Position numbers and translations under genes: made by a program. From Azospirillum oryzae (GTDB lineage Bacteria; Pseudomonadota; Alphaproteobacteria; Azospirillales; Azospirillaceae), in contig NZ_FXAK01000001.1 in assembly GCF_900177515.1 (NCBI RefSeq), forward strand, positions 248,001 through 312,000: DNA of 64,000 bases, given 5' to 3'. This document shows positions 9,733-64,000 of this stretch, piece after piece; the first letter of the stretch is position 1, and every line of letters starts with the position of its first letter. Under the pieces are notes generated by a model, which worked only from the letters and a program-made list of their open reading frames with translations, had not been told where the DNA came from and searched no databases.

Positions 9733-9743
9733 AGGAGACCGCG

Positions 9744-10649
9744 ATGGAACGGGTCGCGACCTACAACCATCAGAACACGCTCGTCCAATACATGATGAAG
9801 GCCGAGGCCAAGGTGGCCGCGGAACAGGTCCGCTCGGCGTCGGGGCTGAACTCCACCGACTACAAGGGCATCGCGTCGGACAGCGGCCGGCTGGTCAACC
9901 TCGAAAGCCACTACCGCCGGCTGGAACAGTATATCGACGAAGGCGAGGTCGTGAACGGCCGCATCCAGTCGATGTACGACGCCGTCGGCAGCATGTCGGA
10001 CCTGACCTCCCGCCTCAGCGCCCTGATCACCGGCCTGCAGGGCGACAACGCCGCCGGTGTCGAAGGCGTCGTGGCGGAAGCGGGCCAGCTGATGGAGGAG
10101 CTTGGCGGGCTGCTGAACACCCGCCAGGACGGCCGCTATCTCTTCGCCGGCGGGCGCACCGACCAGCCGGCGGTCGATCTCGACAGTTACACAGCCGCGA
10201 CTTACCCGTCGAGCGCCGACACCGGTTATTACCAGGGGGATTCGACCGTCGCCCATTTCCAGGCGGCCGACGATTTCGTGCTGTCCTACGGCGTCACCGC
10301 CGACCAGCCGGCCTTCGAGAAGGCGCTCCGCGCCTTCAGCCTGATCGCCAGCATGTCGACCGACCCGGTCGACGACGATCTGCTGGCCGAAGCGACGCAG
10401 CTCGCCTCCGACGCCACCGACGGGCTGTCGATCGTCCAGGCCAAGCTCGGCGCCGCCAGTTCCTCGCTGGAGAACAGCATCGACCGCCATGTCGACGAGC
10501 AGCTGGTTCTGCAGACCCAGGTGGAGGACATCCGCAGCGTCGATCTGGCGGAATCCACCACCAGGCTGTCGCAGCTCCAGGCCTCGCTCGAGGCGACCAT
10601 GAGCCTGATGAAGATCCTCGAGGAGAACAACCTGTCCAAATACCTGTGA
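9744..10649 (+). CDS. flgL: flagellar hook-associated protein FlgL (HAP3)
   Basis: A 301-residue flagellin-like protein that forms the second hook-filament junction ring. N-terminal heptad helices (NTLVQYMMKAEAKVAAEQVR), the DGRYLFAGGRTDQPAV segment typical of FlgL, and C-terminal flagellin-like helices are visible. Its place directly after flgK is canonical. A short stem (AGCGC, A6, GCGCT) lies just behind the stop codon. Confidence 0.92.
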   Translation: MERVATYNHQNTLVQYMMKAEAKVAAEQVRSASGLNSTDYKGIASDSGRLVNLESHYRRLEQYIDEGEVVNGRIQSMYDAVGSMSDLTSRLSALITGLQGDNAAGVEGVVAEAGQLMEELGGLLNTRQDGRYLFAGGRTDQPAVDLDSYTAATYPSSADTGYYQGDSTVAHFQAADDFVLSYGVTADQPAFEKALRAFSLIASMSTDPVDDDLLAEATQLASDATDGLSIVQAKLGAASSSLENSIDRHVDEQLVLQTQVEDIRSVDLAESTTRLSQLQASLEATMSLMKILEENNLSKYL

Positions 10650-10694
10650 CCGCAGAGGCAGCGCAAAAAAGCGCTAACCCGACCGAAAAATCCC

Positions 10695-10720
10695 GCCAGC
10701 TTTCGCCGCCTGCCCCGTGA
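10695..10720 (+). promoter_or_regulatory. shared flagellar upstream motif, copy 3 (flagellin)
   Basis: GCCAGCTTTC, 10 bases, CCGTGA, preceded by five A. It is the third copy of the flagellar composite, 51 bases upstream of the flagellin start. GCCGCCTG begins 15 bases after the A run, again sharing only the GCCG half with a FliA -10. Confidence 0.55.
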
Positions 10721-10771
10721 GTCCCAGGTGAGGGTCGCCGAAACGGCCCGGTTCGATCAGGAGACCACATC

Positions 10772-11596
10772 ATGCCCGTCATCTCGACAAACACGGCTTC
10801 CAATTCGGCCCTTCGCTACCTGAACATCAATTCGACCAACCAGTCGGACTCGGTCTCGAAGATCGCCAGCGGTTCGCGCATCACCAAGGCGTCCGACGAC
10901 GCCGCCGGCCTCGCCGTCGGCACCTCGCTGCAGTCGGACATCACGGTGCTGAACCAGGCGGCCACCAACGCCTCGCATGGGTCGTCGATCCTGCAGACCG
11001 CCGACGGCGGCATGTCCAGCATCTCCGACATCGTGCAGCGCATGCGCTCGCTGGCCACGCAATCGCTGTCCGGCTCGGTCACCGACAACGAGCGCTCCTA
11101 TCTCGACGCCGAGTTCCAGCAGCTGCAGGACGAAATCGACGGCATCGCATCGGGCACCCGCTTCAACGACGAATCGCTGCTCGACGGCTCGACCAACTGG
11201 GCGTCGGGCGTGAACTTCCGTGTCGGCACCACCTCGACCGACAACATCACCGTGCAGATCGCCGGCGTCACCACCACGGGGCTGGGCATCAACACGCTTG
11301 ATGTCGGCACCTCGGCCACCGCCGCCGCCGCGCTGACGGCGCTCGACACCGCGGTGACCACCCTGTCGGACGCCCGCGCCGATGTCGGCGCGCTGATCTC
11401 GCGCTTCGAATTCCGCAGCGACATGATCGACACCACCATCGAGAACACCGAGGCCGCCCAGTCCGCCATCATGGACGTCGACGTGGCCGAGGAGCAGTCG
11501 AAGCTGGCATCGGAGAAGGTCCTGACCCAGGCCGCCATCGCCGTTCTGTCGCAAGCGAACTCGATGCCGGAGAATCTGCTCTCCCTTCTCCGCTGA
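10772..11596 (+). CDS. flagellin (short, lateral-type)
   Basis: A 274-residue flagellin, the filament subunit. The N-terminal D0/D1 helices are intact (MPVISTNTASNSALRYLNIN, then SKIASGSRITKASDDAAGLAVG), as is the C-terminal D0 (QAAIAVLSQANSMPENLLSLLR). Only a small central region separates the conserved ends, so the surface-exposed D2/D3 domains are largely absent. Short flagellins of this kind build lateral or swarming filaments in several alphaproteobacteria; 'lateral' is inference. It has its own upstream motif and a hairpin after the stop, which fits high single-gene expression. Confidence 0.95.
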   Translation: MPVISTNTASNSALRYLNINSTNQSDSVSKIASGSRITKASDDAAGLAVGTSLQSDITVLNQAATNASHGSSILQTADGGMSSISDIVQRMRSLATQSLSGSVTDNERSYLDAEFQQLQDEIDGIASGTRFNDESLLDGSTNWASGVNFRVGTTSTDNITVQIAGVTTTGLGINTLDVGTSATAAAALTALDTAVTTLSDARADVGALISRFEFRSDMIDTTIENTEAAQSAIMDVDVAEEQSKLASEKVLTQAAIAVLSQANSMPENLLSLLR

Positions 11597-11610
11597 CGGT
11601 CCGCAAGGCT

Positions 11611-11638
11611 GCCGGCGGGGGCACAAGTCCCGGCCGGC
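11611..11638 (+). terminator. stem-loop after flagellin
   Basis: GCCGGCGGGG and CCCGGCCGGC pair around a short loop, followed by a pyrimidine-rich tail (GCTTTCCCTTTC). It is a probable terminator or mRNA-stabilising hairpin between flagellin and fliD; the T-tract is weak. Confidence 0.5.
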
Positions 11639-11731
11639 CGCCGCTTTCCCTTTCAGCCGAAGCCGCCACCAAACCCGCATCGCCGTGCCATCCGCCGCCC
11701 CGCTCGCGGCCGGAATTGGGGGAGCCTTGCC

Positions 11732-13414
11732 ATGACCACCGTCAGTTCCACCTCTTCCAGCACCGCAGCGACGACGGGTTATACGGCGCTGTCCTCCAGC
11801 GATTCCGGCACCGGCATCGACTATTCCCTGCTGATCGAGGCGAAGGTCAATGCGAGGCTGGCGAAGGCCGACCGGATCGACACCAAGATCACGGCGAACG
11901 AGGCGAAGATCACCGCCTACACCGATCTGCAGGACAAGCTGCAGGCCGTCAACGACGCCATCGACGGGCTGCGCAACCGCAGCGTCGCCACCGGCGCGTC
12001 CTCCAACCTGTTCGGCCAGCGCACCGCCTATGTCGGCGACGACGATGTGTTCAGCGCCACGGTGGACGACGACACGGAGGTCGGAACCTATTCGGTCGTG
12101 GTGCAGCAGCTCGCCACCAAGCACAAGATCGCGGCGGACGCCGCCGGCAGCAAGACCGATGCGCTGGGCTATTCCGGCAGCTTCACGCTGCAGGCGGCCG
12201 ACGGCAACGCGGTCACCATCTCGATGGAGAGCGACGACAGCCTGACCGACCTGCGCGACGCCATCAACGCCAACAAATCGACCAGCGGTGTCACCGCCAG
12301 CATCGTGCAGGTCAGCGACAGCAGCTATCAGCTGATCCTGACCGCCAACGACACGGGCGAGGAAATCAGCCTGACCGACGGCGGCGACGGCATCCTGTCC
12401 TCGCTCGGCCTGACCGACAGCGACGGCGCGATCAAGAACGAGCTGGTCGCGGTGCAGGATGCGATCGTCGAGATCGACGGCGTCACCGTCAGCCGCAGTT
12501 CCAACACCATCGACGACGCCATCGAAGGCGTGACGCTGAACCTCTACAGCGCCAGCCCCGACACGGCGATTTCCATGGAGGTGTCGACCGACCTGTCCTC
12601 GATCAAGTCGGCGATCGTCAGCTTCGTCGACGCCTACAACGAATACCGCGACTTCGTGCTGACGCAGCAGGCGACGACCAGCGACGGCACGGCGTCCAGC
12701 GACGCGACTCTATTCTCCGACAGCCTGTTGCGGCAGATCGTCCGGTCGGTCAACAGCGCCCTCAACACGTCGATCACCACCGACGACGGCACGGTGCTGT
12801 CGATGGCCTCGCTGGGCATCAGCTTCAACAGCTCCAACGAGCTGGAACTGGACGAGGATACGCTGAACAGCATCCTCAGCACCGATGTCGATGCGGTTCA
12901 GCAACTGCTCGGCCTCAACATGACGAGTTCGTCGAGCCAGATGTCGCTGCTGCGCTACACCAGCAGCGCCTCGGCTTTGTCCTTCACGCTGGATATTGTG
13001 CGCGGCGACGACGGCGCCCTCACCTCGGCATCGGTCGACGGCGACAGCAGCCTGTTCACCGTCAGCGACGACCGCATCATCGGCGCCGAAGGCACGGCCT
13101 ATGAAGGCATCGTGCTGGTTTATTCCGGCAACAGCGGCAGCGTCGACATCGATTTCTCGCAAGGGCTGGCCGACAAGCTGTTCGGTGTCATCGACGATGC
13201 GTCGGCGGACTACGACAGCGACCTCGCCACCGCCATCGACGATCTGGAAACCCGGGATACCGAGCTGGAAAGCCGCTCGACCGACATCAAGACCAAGGCC
13301 GAGACCTACCGCAGCACCCTGACCGCCTATTACGCCCGGCTGGAGGCGGCTGCCGAGACGGCGGCCCTTCTGCTGAAACAGCTGACCTACAGCGACAGCA
13401 GCGACGACAGCTGA
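11732..13414 (+). CDS. fliD: flagellar filament cap protein FliD (HAP2)
   Basis: A 560-residue filament cap. The N-terminus contains the FliD segment GIDYSLLIEAKVNARLAKADRI with coiled-coil residues, the middle has FliD_C-type blocks (NEYRDFVLTQQATTS, then LASLGISFNSSNELELDE), and the C-terminus is a long helix (YRSTLTAYYARLEAAAETAALLLKQL) that plugs into the filament. The composition is extremely Ser/Thr/Asp-rich, like the neighbouring secreted flagellar proteins. fliS follows after 40 bases. Confidence 0.92.
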   Translation: MTTVSSTSSSTAATTGYTALSSSDSGTGIDYSLLIEAKVNARLAKADRIDTKITANEAKITAYTDLQDKLQAVNDAIDGLRNRSVATGASSNLFGQRTAYVGDDDVFSATVDDDTEVGTYSVVVQQLATKHKIAADAAGSKTDALGYSGSFTLQAADGNAVTISMESDDSLTDLRDAINANKSTSGVTASIVQVSDSSYQLILTANDTGEEISLTDGGDGILSSLGLTDSDGAIKNELVAVQDAIVEIDGVTVSRSSNTIDDAIEGVTLNLYSASPDTAISMEVSTDLSSIKSAIVSFVDAYNEYRDFVLTQQATTSDGTASSDATLFSDSLLRQIVRSVNSALNTSITTDDGTVLSMASLGISFNSSNELELDEDTLNSILSTDVDAVQQLLGLNMTSSSSQMSLLRYTSSASALSFTLDIVRGDDGALTSASVDGDSSLFTVSDDRIIGAEGTAYEGIVLVYSGNSGSVDIDFSQGLADKLFGVIDDASADYDSDLATAIDDLETRDTELESRSTDIKTKAETYRSTLTAYYARLEAAAETAALLLKQLTYSDSSDDS

Positions 13415-52652: not shown

Positions 52653-52695
52653 TGTGGTGCGGCTCACATCCCGGAATCCGAGGCTTGGGTAGGGT
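52653..52695 (+). promoter_or_regulatory. Crp-type site 1 and -10 element
   Basis: TGTGGTGCGGCTCACA (52653-52668) has the 5-6-5 dyad of a CRP site. TAGGGT (52690-52695), a -10-like hexamer, is centred 32 bases downstream, which would put the site near -41.5 (class II activation). Sites 2, 3 and 4 show the same geometry. It is about 80 bases upstream of the gene at 52749. Confidence 0.75.
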
Positions 52696-52748
52696 CTGTC
52701 CATCGGCAACACGCCGCATCCCGCGGCCCCGAGACAGGAGACCAGATC

Positions 52749-53291
52749 ATGATCCGCACCTCCCTGCTGACCGGCTTCGCTTCGCTCGCCCTGTTCGCCG
52801 CCCCGGCGATGGCCCAGAACATCTCCGACATCTCCAACACCGCGGCCGGCATCGGCAACACCGCCAACCAGAGCGCGCTGGTCATGCAGAAGTCGAAGGG
52901 TCCCTTCGCCGGGCCGAACGTCGCCACCGTGTCGAACCTCGCCGCCGGCATCGGCAATACCGCCAACCAGGGCGCCTTCGTGAAACAGCGCAGCGGCGGC
53001 GTGTTCGGCGGCGGCTCGGCGGCGATCATCGGCAACACCGCCGCCGGCATCGGCAACAATGCCGGCCAGATGGCAACGGTGATGCAGCGCAGCGGCGGCC
53101 TGCTGAGCGGCGGCTCGGTCGCCAATGTCGGCAACACGGCGGCCGGCATCGGCAACACCGCCCTGCAGAACGGCACCGTGCTGCAGCGCTCCGGCGGGCT
53201 GCTCGGCCCCTTCAACCACAGCTCCATGCAGAACCTGTCGGCCGGTGTCGGCAACTTTGCCGGCCAGAGCGCCCTGGTCAAGCAGCGCTGA
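52749..53291 (+). CDS. secreted repeat protein with five curlin-like units
   Basis: A 180-residue protein. A Sec signal peptide ends at AMA-Q (about residue 23). The mature part is five imperfect units of about 33 residues built on xxNTAAGIGNTAxQxAxVxQ, then (R/K)SGG and Gly/Ser. The spacing of Asn, Gly and Gln recalls curlin repeats (SxxxxxQxGxxNxAxxxQ), which stack as strand-loop-strand in amyloid fibres, but the match is partial. No Cys is present. No csgEFG-like genes occur in the window. A Crp-type site and a terminator bracket the gene, so it is transcribed alone. Confidence 0.75.
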   Translation: MIRTSLLTGFASLALFAAPAMAQNISDISNTAAGIGNTANQSALVMQKSKGPFAGPNVATVSNLAAGIGNTANQGAFVKQRSGGVFGGGSAAIIGNTAAGIGNNAGQMATVMQRSGGLLSGGSVANVGNTAAGIGNTALQNGTVLQRSGGLLGPFNHSSMQNLSAGVGNFAGQSALVKQR

Positions 53292-53328
53292 CCGCCACTC
53301 CTCCTTCCAGGCTTCCTCCCCAGACCTC

Positions 53329-53361
53329 GCTCCGGCCGGACCCCGGCCGGAGCATTCTTTT
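53329..53361 (+). terminator. Rho-independent terminator
   Basis: GCTCCGGCCGG and CCGGCCGGAGC form a perfect 11-bp stem with a 3-base loop, followed by ATTCTTTT. It separates the first repeat-protein gene from the next Crp-type promoter. Confidence 0.88.
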
Positions 53362-53406
53362 GCCCGCATGGTGCCGCCGGAACCTTCCCGGAAAACGCCC
53401 GCCAAC

Positions 53407-53449
53407 TGTGGGTCAGCTCACAGAAGCAATCCCGGCGCTTCACTAAGCT
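53407..53449 (+). promoter_or_regulatory. Crp-type site 2 and -10 element
   Basis: TGTGGGTCAGCTCACA (53407-53422) shares the TGTGG-N6-TCACA form of site 1. TAAGCT (53444-53449) is centred exactly 32 bases downstream. It is 66 bases before the second repeat-protein operon, directly after the terminator of the first. Confidence 0.75.
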
Positions 53450-53515
53450 TTCTTCAAGAGAACATCGGGGCGCGGAAGCCCGAAGCCTCACCCTCCATCG
53501 AAGGAAACCCCCGCC

Positions 53516-53971
53516 ATGATCCGCAATTTCGCTCTCGGCGCTCTCGCCACCGCCCTGCTCGCCACCCCCGCCCTGGCGCAGCCCAAATCCGCCGCCGGTC
53601 CCGGCCTGCCCGCCATGATGGCCGTTCCCGGTCTGACCAGCACCAACGTCGCCAACGCCACCAATGTCGGCGCCGGCATCGGCAACTCGGCGCAGCAGCA
53701 GGGCGCCGTCTTCCAGGGCGGCGGCAGTGCGCCCATTCGCGGCGTCGGCCCGCTGGTCAGCACCAATGTCGGCACCGCCACCAACGTCGCCGCCGGCATC
53801 GGCAACAGTGCCGGACAGAGGCTGCTCGGCTTCCAGGGCAACGGCGTTCAAGTCGGGCTGAATTTCAGCGGCCGTGGACCTCTGGTCAGCACCAATGTCG
53901 GGGTCGGCACCAACGTCACCGCCGGCCTCGGCAACAGCGCCGGCCAATCGCTGACCGGCCTGCGCCGCTGA
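53516..53971 (+). CDS. secreted repeat protein with three STNVGxxTNVxAGIGNSAxQ units
   Basis: A 151-residue protein, related in design to the 52749 product. A Sec signal peptide ends at ALA-Q (about residue 22). Three units of about 40 residues follow, each with STNV, TNVxAGIGNSAxQ and a Gly-rich linker. The Asn/Gly/Gln ladder again suggests beta-stacked units. Crp-type site 2 precedes it. It is followed at 35 and 31 base gaps by two small secreted-protein genes and then a terminator, so it heads a three-gene operon. The signal sequence of this and the 52749 protein begin alike (MIRN/MIRT), pointing to common origin. Confidence 0.75.
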   Translation: MIRNFALGALATALLATPALAQPKSAAGPGLPAMMAVPGLTSTNVANATNVGAGIGNSAQQQGAVFQGGGSAPIRGVGPLVSTNVGTATNVAAGIGNSAGQRLLGFQGNGVQVGLNFSGRGPLVSTNVGVGTNVTAGLGNSAGQSLTGLRR

Positions 53972-54006
53972 TCCCCCATCCCCACCCCTCGCCCGGGAGG
54001 CCACCG

Positions 54007-54366
54007 ATGCCGAAGCTCCCGCCCAGACTCCCGACAATCCTGGCCATCGCTGCGCCCGTCCTGCTGTTCGCCGGTCTTTCGGCACCGGTGCAGGCCGGCT
54101 CCCTCGCCTGCCAGACGGTCAACGGCAAGACCGTCTGCATGCGGGGATCGGGAACGCTGAGCTGCGTGACGCTCGACGGCCTGACCCGCTGCTCCGCCAC
54201 GCCGTCCGACCCGCGGTCGGAGGTCGTTCCCGACGCGGAGACCCTTCTGCTCCCCCGCCCGGTCGCCCCCGACCTGCGCGGCCTCCTCGACCGCCGGGGC
54301 TTCCCCTTCGGCCATCAGGCCCGCTCCGTCGACCTGGATGACGACGACGACCCCGACATCGACTGA
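54007..54366 (+). CDS. small secreted protein with two C-x8-C units and an acidic tail
   Basis: A 119-residue protein. The signal peptide spans about residues 1-30 (cut near VQA-G). Then come two matching units, CQTVNGKTVC and CVTLDGLTRC, each able to close a small disulfide loop. The last 12 residues are a run of Asp-rich acidic sequence, possibly for calcium or basic partners. CCCGGGAGG precedes the start. It is the middle gene of the operon begun at 53516. The family is not recognised. Confidence 0.7.
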   Translation: MPKLPPRLPTILAIAAPVLLFAGLSAPVQAGSLACQTVNGKTVCMRGSGTLSCVTLDGLTRCSATPSDPRSEVVPDAETLLLPRPVAPDLRGLLDRRGFPFGHQARSVDLDDDDDPDID

Positions 54367-54397
54367 ACCCCACCGCAACCGAACCGGAGACACCGCC

Positions 54398-54658
54398 ATG
54401 TCCCGTCTTTTGACCCTGTCGCTGGCGCTCGCCACCATCGCCGCGGCGCCGGCCTTCGCCGCGACGCCGACCCTGTCCTACACGCGGGCGGCCACGCTCG
54501 GCCCGCTGATCCTCCAACCGGCCCCCGGCATCCCGAAGCCGCCGCCCTGCCTGACCTGCGGCCGGACGACCCTGCCGGGGATCACGCCGGGTCCCACCTT
54601 CGGCGGCGACCGCGCCCTGAACCCGCAGCCTCTGCCACCGAAGGCGATCTTCCGCTGA
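54398..54658 (+). CDS. small secreted protein with CxxC and NPQPLPP motif
   Basis: An 86-residue protein with a Sec signal peptide (cut near AFA-A, about residue 21). The mature part is Pro-rich, with PPPCLTCGRTTLPG and a C-terminal ALNPQPLPPK segment, a motif I recall from other uncharacterised secreted proteins. GGAGACACCGCC precedes the start. It is the last gene of the operon and is followed by a strong terminator. The function is unknown. Confidence 0.65.
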   Translation: MSRLLTLSLALATIAAAPAFAATPTLSYTRAATLGPLILQPAPGIPKPPPCLTCGRTTLPGITPGPTFGGDRALNPQPLPPKAIFR

Positions 54659-54678
54659 ATTCGAACCTTCATGTCCAA

Positions 54679-54708
54679 GGGCGACCGGCCAGCGCCGGCC
54701 GCCCTTTT
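54679..54708 (+). terminator. Rho-independent terminator
   Basis: GGGCGACCGGC and GCCGGCCGCCC form a GC-rich stem with a short loop, followed by TTTT. It ends the three-gene secreted-protein operon just before the Crp-type regulator gene. Confidence 0.8.
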
Positions 54709-54860
54709 CGTGTCCGCCCCGCGCACGGACGGCGCAGAAGCGCCAACGACGGCGTACCGCCTTTGACGGAGTAAGACGGCCCGGTTGCCGGCGTACCATT
54801 CCCTGGCTGGAGAAGCGGCCCGCGATTTCAGCCACGATGTCAGCCAGAAGGGTGGCGGCC

Positions 54861-55571
54861 ATGACTGCGATACGGATCAACTTCGACAAGGATCTCGTCC
54901 TCGCCGGGCATTTCCTGCTCAAGCATCTGGAGCGGGAGGAACGGCAGCGTCTGGCCAACAGCGCCCGGCTGTCCCACCACCCGCGCGGCGCCATGATCTT
55001 CCAGAAGGGCGATCCGGGCGACAGCATGATGGCGGTCATCCGCGGCCGGGTGAAGATCTGCTGCCATTCGATGGACGGCAAGGAGCTGGTGCTGAGCATC
55101 ATCAACAAGGGCGGCCTGTTCGGCGAGATCGCGCTGCTGGACGGCGAGCCGCGCACCGCCGACGCGGTTGCGCTGGAGGAGACCGACCTGCTGGTCCTCG
55201 ACCGGTCGCAACTGATGCCGGTGCTGACCGCAAGGCCGGATCTCGCCTTCCGCATCATCGGCGTGCTGTGCAAGCGGCTGCGCACGACCAGCGAGCATCT
55301 GGAGGACACGCTGTTCCTCGAAGCGTCCTCCCGCTTCGCCCGCGCGCTGAAACGGCTGGGCGATGCCTTCGGCAAGCCGGGACCGCAGGGGCTGCGGCTG
55401 GACATCAAGTTGTCGCAGCAGCAGCTCGGCTGCCTCGTCGGCGTCTCGCGGGAGAGCGTCAACAAGCTGCTGAACGAATGGCAGCGCGCCGGCGTGATCG
55501 AGATGGATGCCGGCCATATCGTCATCCGCGATAGCCGCGCGCTGGACGAGATCGGCGACTCCTGCGGCTGA
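54861..55571 (+). CDS. Crp/Fnr-family transcriptional regulator, cyclic-nucleotide-binding type
   Basis: A 236-residue regulator. Residues 20-125 form the cyclic-nucleotide-binding barrel; the phosphate-binding cassette FGEIALLDGEPRTA (87-100) keeps the Glu and the Arg98-Thr99 pair that contact the phosphate in CRP. The dimer helix follows, then the winged HTH with recognition segment SRESVNK (196-202), close to SRETVGR of E. coli CRP, including the Arg-Glu that reads TGTGA. There is no N-terminal Cys cluster as in FNR. The start at 54861 has AAGGGTGG upstream; 54837 is the alternative. Its nearby TGTG-N8-CACA-type sites and the linked cyclase make it the probable local cAMP sensor. Confidence 0.9.
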   Translation: MTAIRINFDKDLVLAGHFLLKHLEREERQRLANSARLSHHPRGAMIFQKGDPGDSMMAVIRGRVKICCHSMDGKELVLSIINKGGLFGEIALLDGEPRTADAVALEETDLLVLDRSQLMPVLTARPDLAFRIIGVLCKRLRTTSEHLEDTLFLEASSRFARALKRLGDAFGKPGPQGLRLDIKLSQQQLGCLVGVSRESVNKLLNEWQRAGVIEMDAGHIVIRDSRALDEIGDSCG

Positions 55572-55592
55572 GACGCCCCATCGACGCTGTTC

Positions 55593-55635
55593 TGTGAGCC
55601 GCGCCACAGCGCCCGCATCGGCCTCCGCCTATTCT
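55593..55635 (+). promoter_or_regulatory. Crp-type site 3 and -10 element
   Basis: TGTGAGCCGCGCCACA (55593-55608) has the TGTGA-N6-CCACA dyad, and TATTCT (55630-55635) is centred 32 bases downstream, as at sites 1 and 2. It lies 64 bases after the site edge to the gene at 55672, and directly behind the regulator gene. Confidence 0.75.
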
Positions 55636-55671
55636 GCTCCCCACACCCGGCCGCCAGCCCCGAGGGAGCCC

Positions 55672-56376
55672 ATGACCATGTCGCCCCGTACAGCTTTTCT
55701 TCCCACGGTCGCCGCCCTGTTGCTGACCGCCGGGACGGCCGCAGCCCAGGTCACCGGCGGCATCGCCTTTCCACCCGGCCCGATCCCCGGCGCCGCGATG
55801 GCGCAGGCCTTCTCCCAGGCGCCGCGCCTGCCGGTGTCGGTGAACCCGACACCCCGCGGCGCGCCCCCCGGCGCGATGGTGACCAACCCGTCGGTCCGCC
55901 GGTCTTCCGTGAACCAGCAGGCGATCACCCGCATCCGCGGCGACGCCGGCTATCTCGCCGGCTTCAACAAGGGACAACCGCTGGCCGCCAGCCGCCAGCC
56001 GCCGGTGCAGCCCGACCCGGGCTTCACCTTCATCGACGCGCCCTTCATCGTGAACAACTTCAACAGCGCGCTGAACTTCGCCTTCGGCGACGGCAACATC
56101 AGCCAGCAGCAGCTCGGCGACGGCAGCGCCGGCCCGGTGGAGACCGCCGCCCCCGCCCCGCCTGCGCCCGAACCGGCCCCGGCGCCCGATCCGGCCGCCC
56201 AGCCCGCCGGCCCCTCGACGTTGGACCTGCTGATGCGCACGGCCGGGCCGCTGCCGCATCTGCCCACGGCGCTGGCCAATGGCGGTGTGCAGTTCAACAA
56301 CGTGAACACCGTGACCAACACCGCGGTCGGCACGCGCAACCGCGCGACGCAGACGACCGTCACCATCCAGCGCTGA
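55672..56376 (+). CDS. secreted Asn/Pro-rich protein with curlin-like C-terminus
   Basis: A 234-residue protein with a signal peptide (cut near AAA-Q, about residue 25). The middle has a segment FIVNNFNSALNFAFGDGNIS followed by QQQ, then a Pro/Ala-rich spacer (APAPPAPEPAPAPDP). The end, VQFNNVNTVTNTAVGTRNRA, then TQTTVTIQR, has the Asn/Thr/Gln ladder of curlin-type repeats. It is preceded by Crp-type site 3. It is convergent with the caspase-like gene with 9 bases between the stops. The Met at 55672 follows GAGGGAGCC. Confidence 0.7.
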   Translation: MTMSPRTAFLPTVAALLLTAGTAAAQVTGGIAFPPGPIPGAAMAQAFSQAPRLPVSVNPTPRGAPPGAMVTNPSVRRSSVNQQAITRIRGDAGYLAGFNKGQPLAASRQPPVQPDPGFTFIDAPFIVNNFNSALNFAFGDGNISQQQLGDGSAGPVETAAPAPPAPEPAPAPDPAAQPAGPSTLDLLMRTAGPLPHLPTALANGGVQFNNVNTVTNTAVGTRNRATQTTVTIQR

Positions 56377-56385
56377 GCAGGATCG

Positions 56386-59157
56386 TCAGTTCACCTCGCG
56401 CGCCACCCGGAAGCCGTTGGTGAGATAGCGCACGTCGATGTCGTAGCTGTTGCGCACCGTGCCGTTGATCGCCTCCAGCCGGTCGCGCCAGGAGCCGCCG
56501 CGCAGCACCCGCTTGCGGCAATCGCCGCGGGTCCAGGCGCTGCCGTCGTCCGGCGCGCCGTGATAGTTCCGGTTCCAGCAATCCTCGACCCATTCCGCCA
56601 CGCTGCCGTTCATGTCGTGCAGGCCGAAAGGGTTCGCCTTATAGCTGCCGGCCGCGATCGGGGTCAGGTGTTCGTGCGCGCCGCCGCAATCGTCGCAGTC
56701 GGCGTGGACGCCGCCTTCCCCGCCCCACCAGTAGGGTGCCGTGGTACCGGCACGCGCGGCAAATTCCCATTCCGCCTCGCTCGGCAGGCGATAGCGCTGT
56801 CCGGTCTTGCGGCTGAGCCATGCCACATAGGCCTGGGCATCCTGCCAATGCAGATTATGGACCGGCGTGCCGTCGGCGGGGTTGACCATGCGGGGCATGC
56901 CGGTGCAGCCGCCCTCCTGGATGCAGGCGCGCCATTCGCCGACCGTCACCTCATACATGCCGAGCGCGAAGGGCTTGCCGATGGTGACGCGGTGGACCGG
57001 TCGCTCCGACGGGTCGCCCCTGTCGTTCCCCATCATGAAGTTGCCGGCCGGCACCCGCACCAGCACCGGACAGGTCGGACAATCCTGGAAGCTGTTGCCA
57101 TTGCCATGGTTGCGCGCCGTCCCGTTGCCCTGTGCCGGTGCAGGAGCCGGCGCCGTAGCCGCCGCCACCTGCGGCTCGGCCTTGGAGGGCTCGGGCGGTG
57201 ACGGCTGCGGTGCGGCCTCCACCACCGGCGGTGCCGCCGGGGGTGTCGGCAGTGGTTCGTGCTTCAACAGGCCCGCGGCGACGAAACCCTGGGTGCCGTC
57301 CTCCAGAGCGACCCGGTACCACCCTCCCTCCGGCACGCGGCCCAGCACCTGCACCGCCGATCCGCGCGCCACGCGGCCGACCCGCGCGCCACTGTTGGCC
57401 GGCGCCGCCCGCAGCACGCTGTCCACCGTGGCGGTGTAGCGTCCGGGTTCCGCCGGCTCCAGGCCGGGACCCAATACCGCCTCCTGTTTGGTCTCCGTCT
57501 TAGGCGGCTCTTCCGCCCGCTTGCCGGCGAGCGTCAGCGTTTCCAGCTGGCGGCGGGCAATGGGGGCGTAGCCGCTGCCGCCGAACAGCTGCAGGAATGC
57601 CTGATAATCACCGGGCTCCTTGCTGGACTGGATGCGCTTCCACAGGCTGTCCTCCAACTCCGCCACCGGCGGTATGCCCGGCGGGGCGATCTCCACGCTG
57701 ACGCTCGCCGTTGCGGAGCCGCCGCGCCCGTCATCGACGCTGTAGCGCAGGGCTCCGGCCGGTCCGGGGGCCGCGGCCTCCGGGTCGAAGGTCAGCGCGG
57801 TCAGCGCCTGGACGGTCAGCCGGTCGCCCGGCTTCACCACCGCCGCACCGTCATGGACGCTGCCGCGCTCCGGCACGGCGGTGACGGTGACGGTCAGCGG
57901 ATCGCCGTCCGGATCGGCCGGGGCATCGATCCCCATCGGGTTGCCGGCGACGCGCAGCTTGCGTTCCGCCACCACGGCCGGCGGCTGGTTGCTCGGCTTG
58001 ATGGTGACCGGGATGGTGCCGGTGACCATGCCGCCGCGGCCGTCGGCAACCAGGAACTCGAAGGCGCCGGCCTCGCCGCGGAAGCTGCCGTCGGGCTTGA
58101 AGCTGGTGGCCGCCAGTTGCTCCACCGTCAGATAGTCGCCGATCAGCACGCTGCGCTCGCCGACGCGGACGGTGCCGCCGCGCGGCAGGCCGGTGATGCG
58201 GGCGTACATCTGGTCGTCGTCGGGGTCGGTCGGCTTGCCGGCCCCCAGCGGCTCCGGCCCGGCGCGGTCCAGCACGGTCAGCACCCGCAACTCGCCCAGC
58301 ACCGGCGGCCGGTTGGGCGGGCGCGGGTTGAAGTAGAAGGGCGTGGCGCCGAGCGAGCCGTAGACGAAGGGCTCCTGCCGGCCGTTGGTGGCCTGCTTCA
58401 CCGTATCGCGCACATTGCGGAAGAACAGGCTCAGCTCCAGCCCCGGCGCCTGGAGATGCTGGAGCAGCGCCGCGCTGAAGGGGCTGTGGTCGCCGGTGCC
58501 GTCCTCCGCAAGCTGGTCGGCGCGGGTCGCCATCGCCACCAGCGTGTCGCTCGGCGTGTCTTCGACGCTGCCGAAGCCGGGATGGGCCTGATTGCGGTTT
58601 GACCCGCTGCGGGTCAGGCGGTCGACGAAGGGATTGTTGCGGCAGGCGTCGAGGATGAGGATGCCGAGCTTGCGCGCCCCGGCCAGCTCCCCCATCGGCA
58701 GGTTCAGCGGAATCGCCTCATAGACCAGATCGCGTTCGCGCTCCAACTGGGCGTCGGCGGGCAGCAGGTAATTGACGCCGTTCACCTGGATGCCGTGCCC
58801 GGCATAGAAGATCACCGCCACGTCGGCCTGCGAGGCCTTGATGCCGAACCGGCGCAGGGCGACGGCGAAGCCGCGGGCGTCCAGGTCGTACTCCTCGTCC
58901 ACCGTGAAGTTCAGCGCCCGCAGCGCCTCGCCGATGGCACGGGCGTCGTTGCTCGGATTCAGCAGTTCCGGCGCGTTGCGGTATTTGCTGACCCCGATCA
59001 CCAGCGCAAGCCGGCTTTCCGCCGCGGCGCCGGTACCCGGGCCTTGCCCGCCGCCAGCCGAACGGGCCGCGTGCGCAAAGCCGCCCGGCACCGCGACCAG
59101 CAGCAGGAGCAGCAGCACCGCGAAAAGCATCCGGCAGGGTCCGACCGGTCCCATCAT
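56386..59157 (-). CDS. secreted caspase-like (peptidase C14) protein with Ig-like repeats, SH3 and formylglycine-enzyme-fold domain
   Basis: A 923-residue exported protein. A signal segment (about residues 1-31) is followed by a caspase domain (about 45-290) with catalytic His121 in YAGHGIQV and Cys172 in ILDACRNNPF, so the protease dyad is present. Next come two cadherin/Ig-like repeats (about 300-500; ADPDGDPLTVTVTAVPERGS), an SH3-like domain (about 575-625), a Pro/Ala linker, and a C-terminal FGE-sulfatase-type domain (FQDCPTCPVLVRVPAGNFMM to the end). The FGE Cys pair after RGGS is absent (GGSWRDRL), so the domain is probably a non-catalytic ligand- or protein-binding fold. It follows the cyclase operon on the same strand after 226 bases. 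Confidence 0.88.
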   Translation of the reverse strand: MMGPVGPCRMLFAVLLLLLLVAVPGGFAHAARSAGGGQGPGTGAAAESRLALVIGVSKYRNAPELLNPSNDARAIGEALRALNFTVDEEYDLDARGFAVALRRFGIKASQADVAVIFYAGHGIQVNGVNYLLPADAQLERERDLVYEAIPLNLPMGELAGARKLGILILDACRNNPFVDRLTRSGSNRNQAHPGFGSVEDTPSDTLVAMATRADQLAEDGTGDHSPFSAALLQHLQAPGLELSLFFRNVRDTVKQATNGRQEPFVYGSLGATPFYFNPRPPNRPPVLGELRVLTVLDRAGPEPLGAGKPTDPDDDQMYARITGLPRGGTVRVGERSVLIGDYLTVEQLAATSFKPDGSFRGEAGAFEFLVADGRGGMVTGTIPVTIKPSNQPPAVVAERKLRVAGNPMGIDAPADPDGDPLTVTVTAVPERGSVHDGAAVVKPGDRLTVQALTALTFDPEAAAPGPAGALRYSVDDGRGGSATASVSVEIAPPGIPPVAELEDSLWKRIQSSKEPGDYQAFLQLFGGSGYAPIARRQLETLTLAGKRAEEPPKTETKQEAVLGPGLEPAEPGRYTATVDSVLRAAPANSGARVGRVARGSAVQVLGRVPEGGWYRVALEDGTQGFVAAGLLKHEPLPTPPAAPPVVEAAPQPSPPEPSKAEPQVAAATAPAPAPAQGNGTARNHGNGNSFQDCPTCPVLVRVPAGNFMMGNDRGDPSERPVHRVTIGKPFALGMYEVTVGEWRACIQEGGCTGMPRMVNPADGTPVHNLHWQDAQAYVAWLSRKTGQRYRLPSEAEWEFAARAGTTAPYWWGGEGGVHADCDDCGGAHEHLTPIAAGSYKANPFGLHDMNGSVAEWVEDCWNRNYHGAPDDGSAWTRGDCRKRVLRGGSWRDRLEAINGTVRNSYDIDVRYLTNGFRVAREVN

Positions 59158-59383
59158 CCCCGCCTCCGTACCCGAGCAAAGAGACGCCGTACAGTGTCGT
59201 CAGCGCATAACGATTGTCTGCTGGATGGATTTTCGGAAATTGCCGGCAGACCGCCCTGGATGGAAGAAGCATACTCATCAGCAAGGAAAATGCCAATCCG
59301 CCCCTTCTGCCTAACTCCGGAAAAAGAGGAGGTGGCATGACGAAATGATTACTTCCTCCATCAAAATCGAAGGCCGATTTTCT

Positions 59384-61267
59384 TCACCCGCAGACGTCGG
59401 CGTTCTCATCGTCGATCAGCAACCATATCCGCACCGTTCGGGTCTTTCCCTTCAGCGCCACCTCCCCCACCGGCAGTGCCTCGCAGCGGTCGCATACGGC
59501 CTGCCAGGTCGGATCGCCGACGATGATGCGGGCATGGCGGGAGGACCGGCCGTCCACCATCTTGCCGTACGCCTCCAGCCGGGCGGCGGTGTTGGCGGTA
59601 TCGCCCAGCAGCGAATATTCGCTGTGCCGCAGCCCGCCCAGGCTGCCGGCCACCAGGGGACCGGTGTGCAGGCCGACGCGGATGCCGACCGGCGGCAGCC
59701 CCTCCGCCTGCCAGCGGCGGTTGAGCGCCTCCAGCTCCCGTCCCATCTGTAGGGCGCAGCGGACGGCGCGGGCCGCGTCGGCGTCGATCTGCGCCTGCGT
59801 ACTGCGGGCGACCGGCGCGCCGAAGACCGCCAGGATCGCATCGCCGACGAAGCGCAGCACCACCCCGTCGTTGGCGGTGACGATGCGCACCATGGCATCC
59901 AAATAGCCCTCCAGCCAGCGGATCAGCGGCTCCGGCTCCAGCGCCTCGCAGATGGTGGTGAAGCCTTCGATGTCGGAGAACAGCACGGTGGCGGTCAGCT
60001 GCTGCGGGCGCGGGCGGTTGCCGGCCATGAAGGTCGCGCGCTCCCGCCAGATCTCCTCCGCCACCGGCTGGGAGACATGGTTGGCGAACAGCTGCATCAT
60101 GACGCGCCGGTCGGCCCGCTCGCGCAGCGACATCTGCACGGTCATGGCGGCGATGCCGGCACCCCAGGCCAGCGACGGCGCCACCAGCGGCACCAGCGGC
60201 CCGCCTGCGGCGAACAGCGCCGCCGAACCGGCCCAGGCCCCCGCCGGAACCAGCAGCCCCGCCGCCGCCAGCAGCCCCAGCGGCAGCCCGGCCATCGCCA
60301 GCGCCACACCGGCCGCCGCCATCAGCAGCGCCAGCGCCGCCTCCCCGGCGACGGGAAGGCGCGGGCTGCTCCGCCCGTCCAGCAGTTGGGCCAGCACATG
60401 CGCCTCGATCTCCACGCCCGGCGTCGAGGCACCGGCGGACGACAACGGCGTGCGGTGCTGGTCGATGCCGGCCAGCGCCGTGCCCACCAGCACCGTCCGC
60501 CCGGTCAGCCAGCTCGTCGGCAGAACGGCGACCGTCTCGGCGGGATAGATCGGGAACGGGGTGGTGGCGCCGTCGGGCCGGCCGTGCCAGTCGATGCGGA
60601 ACGGCTCCGCCGGAACCCCGGACGCGCCGCCGAGGCGGGCGAGCTGCACCGGCAGGCTGGGCGTGCCGTCGCCGCCGAAGGGAACGTGCCAGCGCACGGC
60701 GGCGTCGAGCCTGTCCTTCGCCAGATTGGCATGGCCGCGCGGCAGCCCGTCGGTGAACTCGCCGAGGAAGCGGCGCTGCCGCTCGGTCAGCGGCGTCTGG
60801 TCCAGTGCGGTGATCGCCACGACCGGGACCGACGCGCCCAGCATGGCGCGGCGCAGCCGCTCGTCCAAGGCCGGCAAGGTCGGCTGGTCGAACAGCACGT
60901 CGATGCCGATGGCGCGGACCCGGGCCGCCGCCAGCACGCCGATGATGTCGGCCAGCATGCCGCGATCCACCGGCGACCGGCAGGCCAGCCCGGCGAAGCT
61001 GTCCTCCCCGAACAGCACCAGCGCGATGCCCGGATGCTGCGGCTGGATCGGAGCGGCGGTGGCGATCAGCCGGTCGCCCAGGCTCTCGTCGGCGGTGCGC
61101 AGCGGCGGCACCAGCCGTACGGCGGCGAGCGCCAGCAGGGCGCTGCCCAGCACGATGGCAAGGGCCAGCCAGCGGTGCCGCCCGGGGGCCGGGCGGTCCC
61201 GCACCGCCGGCTCGGCGATAAGGGAAGCCTGCGGACTTGACCGGGGAGTCGCCGGCGCGCCGTCCAT
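59384..61267 (-). CDS. CHASE2-domain class III adenylate/guanylate cyclase
   Basis: A 627-residue membrane enzyme. One N-terminal helix (31-53), a periplasmic CHASE2 sensor (about 60-300, with [15 protein letters not shown]), three further helices (308-388), then the class III cyclase domain (about 420-605). Metal-binding Asp432 (FSDIEGFT) and Asp476 ([11 protein letters not shown]) and the transition-state Asn559/Arg563 (NTAAR) are present, so it should be active. The base-specifying Lys position is Arg472 (LRFVGD) and the second position is Ser552. It is the last gene of the ompA-like operon (7 bases after the DUF4384 gene), controlled by Crp-type site 4. Confidence 0.9.
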
Positions 61268-61274
61268 GCGCCCC

Positions 61275-62402
61275 TCACCGGACCTTCAGGAACAGTTGGG
61301 CGGAGGCCACCTCGGTCTCGCGCAGGCGCGACACCGCGCGGTCGAGCTGGACGGCGGCCTCCTCGGACAGTGGGCGGAAGGCGGCGGCGCGGCCGGGCAT
61401 CTCGTCGTCCAGGTTGCGGCTGGCGGCGATGCAGCGCACCTCCAGATCGGCAGGCCCCTCGCCGGCGCGCAGCGGCATGCGGTCGCCCGACAGGCTGAGC
61501 GGCACATTGCCCGCCACCCGGGCGCTCATGGCGGCACCGGCCGGAAAGATCGGAATCAACTGGGCGCGCGCATTGCGCAGATAGCAGTAGAGATGGGCGT
61601 CGCGGTCGGTCTGGACCAGCAGGCGGATGTCCTCGCCCGGCCGGTAGGCGGGTCCGCCGCGATCCGCCGAGAGAAAGAGGTCGAGCGGCACCATCGCGTC
61701 GCGCAGGGCCGCCATCGCCGCGGCGATCTGCCCGGCGCAGCCGGCCGAGGCCATGCCCACCGCCAGCGCCGCTCCGCCCGCCGCTCCGACCATGCGGACA
61801 TGCAGCGTGCCGACCGGGGTTCCATCCGGCCGCAGCGCGCCGATGTCGCTCCCGTCCGCCAGCGGCAACGCCTGCGGCCAGGGCGCCGAACCGTCGTCCG
61901 CCCAGCTGACCGCCGCACGCTCTCCACTCACCATGTCCTGCAAGGTCAGGCGGTCCAGCCCCGGCTCCGCCGGGCGGCGCAGCGCAGGCGGGCTTCCCGC
62001 CTTGACGCACTGGACGCCGGAGACCGACGGGTCGATGGTCAGCGCCCGCTCCAGCGCCGCATCCAGCGGATTCCCCATGGCGCGCGCCGCACCCAGGTCG
62101 CTCTGCATGAAGCGGTCGTCACCGGGGCCGGCACGGGCCGAAACCGCGCTGTCGGTCATGTCGCCGGGCACCCCGTCATAGGGGCCGCGCAGCCGCAGCA
62201 GCCGGCCGTTGGCGAACAGCAGCGTGGCATTCGCCCCATCGGGGAGCCGCAAGGCCTGCCCGTCGGCGACGAGCTGGCCCTGAATGAAGCCGGGCGCGCT
62301 GGACGACACGACCACGGCCTCCGCCCGCACCGCGGCGGCATGGCCGCAGCCCAGCGCCAGCATGGCGGCGCCGAATGCATGGGAAAGGGATCGCTTGAAC
62401 AT
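61275..62402 (-). CDS. secreted DUF4384-domain protein
   Basis: A 375-residue exported protein. The start at 62402 (MFKRSLSHAFGAAMLALGCG) is preferred over a GTG nine bases earlier, as AAGGTG then lies at good spacing. Residues about 255-345 contain FLSADRGGPAYRPGEDIRLLVQ and HLYCYLRNARAQLIPIFPAG, a block I associate with DUF4384, which is often found with caspase-like and OmpA-type proteins. The N-terminal half (VVVSSSAPGFIQGQLVADGQ) resembles a FecR-like/beta-rich domain. It belongs to the operon of ompA-like, small protein, this gene and the cyclase. A second DUF4384 gene starts off the right edge. Confidence 0.8.
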   Translation of the reverse strand: MFKRSLSHAFGAAMLALGCGHAAAVRAEAVVVSSSAPGFIQGQLVADGQALRLPDGANATLLFANGRLLRLRGPYDGVPGDMTDSAVSARAGPGDDRFMQSDLGAARAMGNPLDAALERALTIDPSVSGVQCVKAGSPPALRRPAEPGLDRLTLQDMVSGERAAVSWADDGSAPWPQALPLADGSDIGALRPDGTPVGTLHVRMVGAAGGAALAVGMASAGCAGQIAAAMAALRDAMVPLDLFLSADRGGPAYRPGEDIRLLVQTDRDAHLYCYLRNARAQLIPIFPAGAAMSARVAGNVPLSLSGDRMPLRAGEGPADLEVRCIAASRNLDDEMPGRAAAFRPLSEEAAVQLDRAVSRLRETEVASAQLFLKVR

Positions 62403-62443
62403 GATGGTCACCTTTTGGTTGGGAGGCTTGGTTGGGAGGCGGA

Positions 62444-62788
62444 TCAGTCGCGGCTGCGCTCTCTTCCATCATCGGGGGAGAGCAGGCAGGCGGTGCGCGA
62501 CTGCGTCACCACCGACACCGCCCCGTCCGTCGCGCCGTTGCGGCGGAAGCGCAGCCCGTTCAACTGGCTGGCGATGCTGAGCGACACGACGGCGAGGTCC
62601 GCTTCGTCGATGATCTTGTGGCCGTCCTGCCAGCATTGGACGCGGACCTTTTTGCCGGCGGGGGCGACATCGACGCCGCCGCTCGCCGCTCCGGAGCTTT
62701 CGCCATCCTTCTTGCGGACCACCGTGGCGTCGGCCCCCTGGAAGACTGTCAAACCGAGACAGACGGCGAGGAGCAAGGCGTGTTTCAT
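62444..62788 (-). CDS. small secreted protein, unknown
   Basis: A 114-residue protein with a Sec signal (MKHALLLAVCLGLTVFQGAD). The mature core KVRVQCWQDGHKIIDEADLA, then SQLNGLRFRR and SVVTQSRTACLL, has two Cys that could form one disulfide. GGAGGGGAA precedes the start. It lies 27 bases after the OmpA-like gene and 41 bases before the DUF4384 gene. I do not recognise the family; its conserved position suggests a small envelope partner. Confidence 0.65.
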   Translation of the reverse strand: MKHALLLAVCLGLTVFQGADATVVRKKDGESSGAASGGVDVAPAGKKVRVQCWQDGHKIIDEADLAVVSLSIASQLNGLRFRRNGATDGAVSVVTQSRTACLLSPDDGRERSRD

Positions 62789-62815
62789 GGCATTCCCCTC
62801 CGTTCCGGCAGCCGC

Positions 62816-63595
62816 TCAATGGGTCGGCTTGAATTCGACGCGCCGGTTGCGGCCGTCATAGGGGTTGGCGGCGAGCGGTTCGCTCGGCCCCTTGCCGTCC
62901 ACGGTGATGCGCTTGGGATCGATCTGGTGGACGCGGACGAGATACTCGCCCACCGACACCGCGCGGCGCTGCGACAACAGCATGTTGTAGGCAAGGCTGC
63001 CGCTGGCGTCGGTGTGGCCCTCCACCGTCAGCCCCAGGTTCGGATCCTCCTTCATCAGCGCCCCGACGGCGTCGATGTAGGAGGCGGACTCCGCCGGGAT
63101 CTCGGCCGAATTGAGGGCGAAGTTGATACGGAAACCGAAAGCCTGCGGTGCCGCTTCCTGTTCCGCAGTGGCCGGCGGTTCGGCAGCGGCCTGCGGCGCG
63201 GCGGCGGCTTCCATCCGCGCCTCCTGCCGGCGCTGCCTGTGTGCGGGACGGCTCGGTGTCGGCTGCGGAGCGGGCTGAGCGATCGGCTGCATCTCCGCCT
63301 GGGGGGCCGGCTGCGGCGCCGGCATGGGCGCCGTGCCGTAATTGATCTCGTCGATGGGGCGCGGGCGCTTGGCGGCGGCACCGGCCGCGCCGCCGATGAT
63401 CTCGATGCTGCGGGTGCGGATCTTCGGTTCCGGCGCCACCACCTCGCGCAGTTCCTCCACGCTGGGCGGCCGGTCGAACATCATCACCTTCGACTGGCCG
63501 GAGCCCTCCACCGTCTGGGCGGACGCCGAACCGGCCCAGACGGCCAGCATCGGCAAAGTGGCGGCCACAACATGGGACAAAGTGGATTTGGTCAT
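62816..63595 (-). CDS. OmpA-family outer-membrane/periplasmic protein
   Basis: A 259-residue protein. The signal peptide ends near SASA-Q (about residue 26), then a Pro/Ala/Gln-rich linker of about 120 residues, then an OmpA_C domain (about 150-259) with GLTVEGHTDASGSLAYNMLL and the closing NRRVEFKP; the Asp and Arg that bind peptidoglycan diaminopimelate are in place. There is no beta-barrel, so it is a periplasmic peptidoglycan-anchored protein. The start at 63595 has GGAG upstream. It heads an operon with the small secreted, DUF4384 and cyclase genes, and Crp-type site 4 lies about 70 bases upstream. Confidence 0.85.
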   Translation of the reverse strand: MTKSTLSHVVAATLPMLAVWAGSASAQTVEGSGQSKVMMFDRPPSVEELREVVAPEPKIRTRSIEIIGGAAGAAAKRPRPIDEINYGTAPMPAPQPAPQAEMQPIAQPAPQPTPSRPAHRQRRQEARMEAAAAPQAAAEPPATAEQEAAPQAFGFRINFALNSAEIPAESASYIDAVGALMKEDPNLGLTVEGHTDASGSLAYNMLLSQRRAVSVGEYLVRVHQIDPKRITVDGKGPSEPLAANPYDGRNRRVEFKPTH

Positions 63596-63636
63596 TTGAG
63601 GCTCCATGGGCGGGAGAAGGAACGGCGTTGCCCCTG

Positions 63637-63679
63637 GTTCTAGCGCCACACCCATCCCCGCGCTGTGAGCCGGCCAACA
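63637..63679 (-). promoter_or_regulatory. Crp-type site 4 and -10 element
   Basis: On the minus strand TGTTGGCCGGCTCACA (63679-63664) keeps the 5-6-5 dyad with a TCACA half. TAGAAC (63642-63637) is centred 32 bases downstream, exactly as at sites 1-3. It serves the OmpA-like/DUF4384/cyclase operon. Confidence 0.7.
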
Positions 63680-63710
63680 GTCGGCCCCCTTTTCCGAACC
63701 GGCCCGGGCC

Positions 63711-64000
63711 TCACTCCCCCTGCGCCAGCGTGCCGGGCAGCACCTTCACCGTCAGCCGCTTGGCGCGGGCGTCGCTTCCCTTCGCCGTGGCGAAGGCGTT
63801 GATGACGTCGTCCAGGGCGGCGCCTGGAATGGGCTGCAGATCCTCGCTCTTGAACGCCTCCGGGATCCGCACGCCGATCTCGTCGTGGGACAGCACGCAG
63901 GCCACCGTCTCCTCCGCTCCCGGCCGGTCCATGCGCAGGTTGAAGGGCTTCTGCACGCCGGGCGGGACTTCCACCTGCCGACCGGCCTCGACGAAGGCGT
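63711..64000 (-). CDS. DUF4384-type protein, C-terminal fragment
   Basis: A frame open at the right edge, running into the window from outside and ending at 63711. Visible are AFVEAGRQVEVPPGVQKPF, AEETVACVLSHDEIGVRIPE, and LTVKVLPGTLAQGE. The order and hydrophobic pattern match the C-terminal part of the 61275 DUF4384 protein (ADLEVRCIAASRNLDDEMPG to QLFLKVR). No start is visible; a GTG at 63974 is not needed. It is thus a second DUF4384 protein beside the same cluster. Confidence 0.65.
   Translation of the reverse strand, partial: AFVEAGRQVEVPPGVQKPFNLRMDRPGAEETVACVLSHDEIGVRIPEAFKSEDLQPIPGAALDDVINAFATAKGSDARAKRLTVKVLPGTLAQGE

Follow-up and report, generated by a model that had tools for sequence, protein, structure and literature searches.

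The closest described relatives of the locus reported here are the curli or type VIII secretion systems (CsgA-CsgG), the HfaA/B/D holdfast anchor of Caulobacter, the CgrA-cGMP regulon of Rhodospirillum centenum cysts and, for a single gene, the orthocaspases. A survey of curli genes by Dueholm et al. (2012) found that curlins occur in many Alphaproteobacteria that have no other Csg proteins, and that CsgE and CsgF are missing from many as well, and it drew the conclusion that export in such bacteria must fall to other proteins; CsgG paralogues of unknown role were reported as well (PMC3521004). Our locus lies at the end of a 64-kb stretch of an Azospirillum replicon (G000:C10:248001-312000), the whole of which we call the window, and continues past it. 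It combines genes for three secreted curlin-like proteins (cur1, cur2 and cur3), a CsgG-like lipoprotein, a Crp-type regulator, a CHASE2 cyclase and an exported caspase-like protein. We consider that it is probably a divergent curli-like (type VIII secretion-like) system under Crp control.

Like curli, the locus has a CsgG-superfamily lipoprotein gene near secreted Asn/Gln/Gly repeat proteins, one of which is modelled with paired-strand repeats. Unlike curli, its putative channel protein is fused to peptidoglycan-binding (PG-binding) and DUF4384 domains, its repeats of 33 amino acids (aa) stay under Pfam curlin detection, CsgE, CsgF and CsgD were not seen in the block, and it has Crp-type boxes and a CHASE2 cyclase. 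HfaB of the holdfast anchor is itself a CsgG paralogue and the NCBIfam HfaB model matches the same segment of our protein (2e-6), but with 27 of 300 bits, far under its cut-off, and the neighbouring genes differ. The orthocaspases share the C14 domain with its His/Cys dyad, and DUF4384 and CHASE2 are named in papers on these proteins, whereas here the caspase is linked to a CsgG-like/curlin-like block. In the open-access literature, closed papers and preprints being outside the search, we found no paper linking CsgG with CHASE2 or DUF4384. An original prediction made from the window knew of no described system with this set of genes, which was too strong, as what is seen here resembles a divergent curli (type VIII secretion) system. 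All the genes it named are present by Pfam and repeat analysis. Of its curlin-like segments, the repeats and Asn ladders are there but a match to the Pfam curlin repeat is not, and its proposed fibre gains support from the CsgG-like channel and the paired-strand model of cur1. The locus is confirmed as real, conserved and more coherent than the window alone shows.

The CsgG-like lipoprotein and its secreted neighbours

The most informative gene of the locus is the one for the CsgG-like protein. It is cut by the window end, and the whole gene runs from 63711 to 65270 in window numbering (approximately G000:C10:311711-313270). Its product is a lipoprotein with a lipobox, LGGC, that was spotted by eye, and Pfam finds DUF4384 (1.8e-19) and PG_binding_1 (4.8e-11) domains in it. 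In profile-profile comparisons the family matches CsgG proteins with a probability of 98.8 (E 6e-17, 231 columns) and a strict CsgG set with 97.7, against at most 0.5 for three unrelated control families, and the homology spans the entire CsgG domain. A PDB sequence search with the protein gave no useful match. The same genome carries a canonical curli set elsewhere, at approximately 136.7-139.9 kb of C2 (L107, G000:C2:128000-147000, 8728-11890), with CsgF, CsgG (192 bits) and two curlin-repeat proteins, and these canonical curlins do match the Pfam curlin repeat (PF07012). Judged by its sequence, the window locus is a second, divergent curli-like set, apart from this csgF-csgG-curlin set. One genome (G096:C1:456000-475000, L103) has tandem units in which several CsgG/HfaB-like genes are accompanied by repeated secreted partners.

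The repeat unit of cur1 is exactly 33 aa, or 99 nucleotides, long and occurs five times, and the protein is 91-93% identical between species. Its AlphaFold2 model, built on a shallow alignment, has ten paired strands, two per repeat (mean predicted local distance difference test, pLDDT, 76.9; predicted template modelling score, pTM, 0.73; 56-69 for the remaining four models). By this model, cur1 is predicted to be a secreted subunit with tandem strand-turn-strand repeats. When this model was searched with Foldseek, the best two PDB matches by E-value were functional amyloids, FapC (8e-4) and CsgA (0.056); this fold resemblance is suggestive only, a hint and not a superposition. Short secreted repeat proteins with the motif N-T-x-A-x-G-x-G-N-x-A-x-Q/T adjoin the CsgG-like gene in several distant loci. 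At least two N-T-x-A-type motifs are found in 43 of 534 short predicted proteins of the studied loci and in none after shuffling, which describes clustering and is no independent test, as the 43 include many close orthologues and the motif had been derived from these proteins. Pfam and NCBIfam hold no family for cur1-3 or for the small secreted proteins of the block. Small secreted proteins with a 'GDVINVC'-like Cys tail, also with no family match, adjoin distant CsgG-like genes (L069, L070, L071, L096 and L097).

We suggest that the signal peptides of cur1-3 would take them across the inner membrane, and that the divergent CsgG-like lipoprotein would then let them through the outer membrane; its PG-binding domain, together with OmpA, may tie the channel to the cell wall. 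Outside the cell, cur1-3 would form a repeat-built, probably amyloid, surface fibre. A divergent CsgG clade with its own repeat-built secreted proteins would be a candidate alternative route for curlins without known export partners.

Several observations weigh against this interpretation. The Pfam CsgG match of the CsgG-like protein is sub-threshold (E 0.0016, 18.2 bits versus a cut-off of 20.8), and its CsgG superfamily membership is assigned solely from the profile comparison. PF07012 has no match in cur1-3, the template modelling scores of cur1 against FapC and CsgA are low (0.14-0.36), and the structure model of cur2 is poor (pLDDT 47) and was left unused. On the signalling side, several distant loci have the CsgG-like gene without Crp, cyclase or caspase. 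Nearly all cyclase orthologues, furthermore, have Arg and Ser at the purine site, at positions that usually hold Lys and Asp/Thr. With the canonical purine-specifying residues replaced by this conserved, unusual pair, the product of the cyclase (cyclic AMP, cAMP, or cyclic GMP, cGMP) cannot be read from the sequence. Finally, neither CsgE nor CsgF was seen in Pfam scans of the block proteins.

This last point also speaks for another explanation, namely a Crp-controlled envelope or cell-wall regulon in which the repeat proteins would have a structural role in the periplasm or at the surface, and the CsgG-like lipoprotein would be a wall-anchored scaffold and not a fibre exporter. The PG-binding, OmpA and SH3 domains are all of envelope type, and CsgG paralogues are known outside curli systems (PMC3521004). 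But a scaffold role sits less well with homology over the full CsgG domain, with the secreted repeat-ladder proteins that accompany the gene in distant genomes, and with cur1 being modelled as stacked paired strands. We therefore find an envelope regulon unlikely and continue with a curli-like system.

Crp-type boxes and the local regulator

The promoters of the cur genes contain boxes of the pattern TGTGR-N6-YCACA, a core of 16 base pairs (bp) that we first noticed there by eye. The 64-kb window holds three of them, 63-93 bp upstream of cur1, cur2 and cur3, where 0.10 are expected, a count that is partly circular because the boxes were first spotted in these same promoters. The footprints in orthologues, an orphan paralogue and relocated genes are, unlike the window count, not circular. 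Exact boxes at similar distances exist in 11 distinct genomes for cur1, 10 for cur2, 11 for cur3 and 7 for 'hyp', a secreted protein encoded beyond the window; in this comparison two locus pairs are the same genome and many genomes are close relatives. For cur1 these are all the distinct genomes with a complete upstream region. The box of ompA has an exact core in five compared loci and 9-10 of 10 core positions in most. Upstream of most other block genes the core score is 6-8, with few 9s and 10s, and among 207 control regions upstream of unrelated genes 5 reach 10 and 17 reach 9.

A scan of the 7.67-Mb genome gave 24 boxes, four of them in this block, and 5 for the reversed pattern used as control. 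An orphan cur1 paralogue approximately 150 kb from the block also has a box, at a distance of 87 bp upstream. This paralogue (L168:9139-9588, G000:C10) has 149 aa with four repeats and stands beside an IS21-like transposase pair. In G008 the curlin-like genes are found away from the block, with a cys1-like gene between the relocated cur2-like and cur3-like genes; boxes, 16 genome-wide, precede two cur1-like genes, one cur2-like gene, one cur3-like gene and ompA. An 18-bp box with two mismatches allowed occurs at chance frequency, and only the exact 16-bp core is informative.

The locus Crp has a cyclic-nucleotide-binding (cNMP-binding) domain, with its pocket Glu and Arg kept among orthologues, and a Crp helix-turn-helix whose recognition helix is SRES or near-identical. 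This helix resembles the SRET helix of E. coli CRP, and the RTA motif in the pocket resembles cGMP-selective domains, which is a lead only. Control of the curlin-like genes by the Crp-type regulator is well supported. The local Crp would bind the boxes before the subunit genes and ompA and so set their expression, and the boxed promoters make the regulation of the locus directly testable.

It might instead be a global Crp that reads the boxes, with the local Crp and cyclase controlling something else or the cyclase feeding another receptor. The genome has many Crp/Fnr paralogues, and CgrA of R. centenum, a Crp homologue, binds TGTGA-N6-TCACA (PMC4681086). However, the locus Crp retains the CRP-like SRES helix and adjoins the CsgG-like gene in all sufficiently long Azospirillum loci with an at least 75% identical CsgG-like gene, whereas the best Crp is just 40-41% identical to it in the two checked genomes without a CsgG-like gene; the share of the genome's boxes that falls in the block also argues against a global reader. 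We regard such an arrangement as quite improbable and prefer the local Crp. The CgrA regulon is the nearest regulatory precedent that we found, with a Crp homologue, boxes of the form TGTGA-N6-TCACA and cyclase genes under feed-forward control (PMC4681086), but the targets of the locus Crp differ. Orthology of the locus Crp to CgrA was considered and is unsupported, the best match in a related complete genome being 40%.

Some further boxes and palindromes were seen. A boxed gene for a 144-aa secreted protein with no family match (G008:C11:130548, L193) may be another member of the Crp regulon. In L169 (G000:C1:111000-119000) YcaO-like and TfuA-like genes, named by eye, adjoin a class III cyclase-domain protein and a Crp that shares 40% identity with that of the locus, and the box TGTGAAGTTTTTCACA lies upstream. 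G000:C3 has five near-identical palindromes TGTGGGRYRYCCCACA (6314, 276058, 280648, 293066 and 546996), which probably belong to another regulator or element.

Cyclase, caspase-like protein and conservation

In the CHASE2 cyclase the two metal Asp and the transition-state Asn and Arg are conserved across aligned orthologues, as in a class III enzyme. Counting from the boxed ompA, where the run begins, its gene comes fourth, and this position suggests positive feedback. The cyclase would sense the periplasm and probably supplies the cyclic nucleotide, and the loop may be self-reinforcing. If true, surface-fibre production would be tied to a cyclase that senses the periplasm, in plant-associated nitrogen fixers, whose surface structures matter in root attachment.

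The His/Cys dyad of the caspase-like protein is kept in 19 of 19 aligned sequences, and outside the caspase half its similarity differs between species. Its gene has a 226-bp upstream gap and no Crp-type box upstream. For this protein the original prediction proposed quality control or processing of the secreted parts. Orthocaspases have Arg/Lys specificity, the cur1 repeats contain Q-R/K-S motifs, and the exported protein may be an accessory, perhaps an Arg/Lys-directed processing enzyme. This is an unusual genomic setting for a caspase-like bacterial protein. A caspase-like protease, a cyclase and a cNMP-binding regulator beside unrelated secreted proteins could also make up a defence or programmed-cell-death island (Pycsar/CBASS-like), and PADLOC models do match the caspase and Pycsar cyclase/effector domains. 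These matches, however, extend no further than the shared catalytic or cNMP domains, and we found no defence effector. The caspase bears a signal sequence, the protein that binds cNMP is a DNA-binding Crp with boxes at curlin-like genes, and the gene order is stable between species. A pairing of cyclase and cNMP-gated killing effector is not present, and we rejected the defence interpretation after the PADLOC scan as very improbable.

The original prediction was to fall if its genes were not linked in relatives. The gene order of the block is maintained in many Azospirillum genomes, so the linkage is not chance. From its chain of envelope signal, cyclase, regulator and fibre, the link between regulator and secreted-protein genes is borne out by the boxes in the window, in orthologues and before the orphan paralogue and relocated genes, whereas the step from cyclase to Crp is one that we infer from linkage only. 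Of 45 same-genus genomes, 33 have a full-length CsgG-like homologue, as do 8 genomes from three further genera in the order and a small minority of 385 genomes sampled from the class. The CsgG-like gene with neighbouring secreted Asn-ladder proteins extends to other alphaproteobacterial families. One distant locus (L095) retains Crp, cyclase, caspase, DUF4399 and OmpA, and in others (L070, L072, L096, L097 and L099) the CsgG-like gene is accompanied just by OmpA or small secreted proteins. Since Crp, cyclase and caspase are often absent in distant relatives, they look like accessories to a core of exporter and substrates. This leads to a more specific hypothesis, which is possible and which we offer tentatively: a distinct alphaproteobacterial functional-amyloid system in which a wall-anchored CsgG-PG-binding-DUF4384 exporter would have its own curlin-like substrates, the Azospirillum form adding a dedicated CHASE2-cyclase/Crp switch, positive feedback and caspase-like trimming.

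Layout of the block and its surroundings

On the plus strand the order is cur1, cur2, cys1, cys2, crp and cur3. On the minus strand, going back from the window end, ompA is followed by a small secreted protein, a DUF4384 protein, the CHASE2 cyclase and the caspase-Big_9-SH3-FGE protein (Table 1). Each named domain of the block is backed by Pfam.

Table 1. Features of the locus, in window numbering.
Feature	Position	Strand	Evidence
Crp-type box TGTGGTGCGGCTCACA, ~80 bp upstream of cur1	52653..52668		pattern scan, orthologue comparison
cur1, secreted curlin-like protein, 180 aa, five repeats	52749..53291	+	repeat analysis, AlphaFold2 model
Crp-type box TGTGGGTCAGCTCACA, ~93 bp upstream of cur2	53407..53422		pattern scan, orthologue comparison
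cur2, secreted Asn-ladder protein, 151 aa, three repeats	53516..53971	+	repeat and motif analysis
cys1, small secreted Cys-containing protein, 119 aa	54007..54366	+	neighbourhood comparison
cys2, small secreted protein, 86 aa, one CxxC	54398..54658	+	neighbourhood comparison
crp, Crp/Fnr-type regulator	54861..55571	+	cNMP_binding 1.4e-23, HTH_Crp_2 (Pfam)
Crp-type box TGTGAGCCGCGCCACA, ~63 bp upstream of cur3	55593..55608		pattern scan, orthologue comparison
cur3, secreted protein, 234 aa, Asn-ladder at C-terminus	55672..56376	+	neighbourhood, upstream and relocation comparison
Exported caspase-like (C14) protein with Big_9, SH3 and FGE-sulfatase domains	56386..59157	-	Peptidase_C14 9.7e-37, FGE 4e-49
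CHASE2 class III nucleotide cyclase	59384..61267	-	CHASE2 2.5e-26, cyclase 3e-22 (Pfam)
Secreted DUF4384 protein	61275..62411	-	Pfam
Small secreted protein, 114 aa, Cys-containing, no known fold	62444..62788	-	sequence and neighbourhood comparison
ompA, OmpA-type peptidoglycan-binding envelope protein	62816..63595	-	Pfam
Crp-type box, one mismatch in window, 68 bp upstream of ompA	63663..63680		orthologue comparison
CsgG-like - PG_binding_1 - DUF4384 lipoprotein gene, 3' part in window	63711..64000	-	Pfam, profile comparison

Upstream of the CsgG-like gene lie two DUF4399-type genes and the gene for 'hyp' (66565-66897). In A. ramasamyi an extracytoplasmic function (ECF)-type sigma factor and a zf-HC2 protein are found just past the DUF4399 genes (L015:26749-28619), a pair that was not seen at the corresponding place in G000. 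A 645-kb plasmid of A. ramasamyi carries a stretch that is 86% identical to the window.

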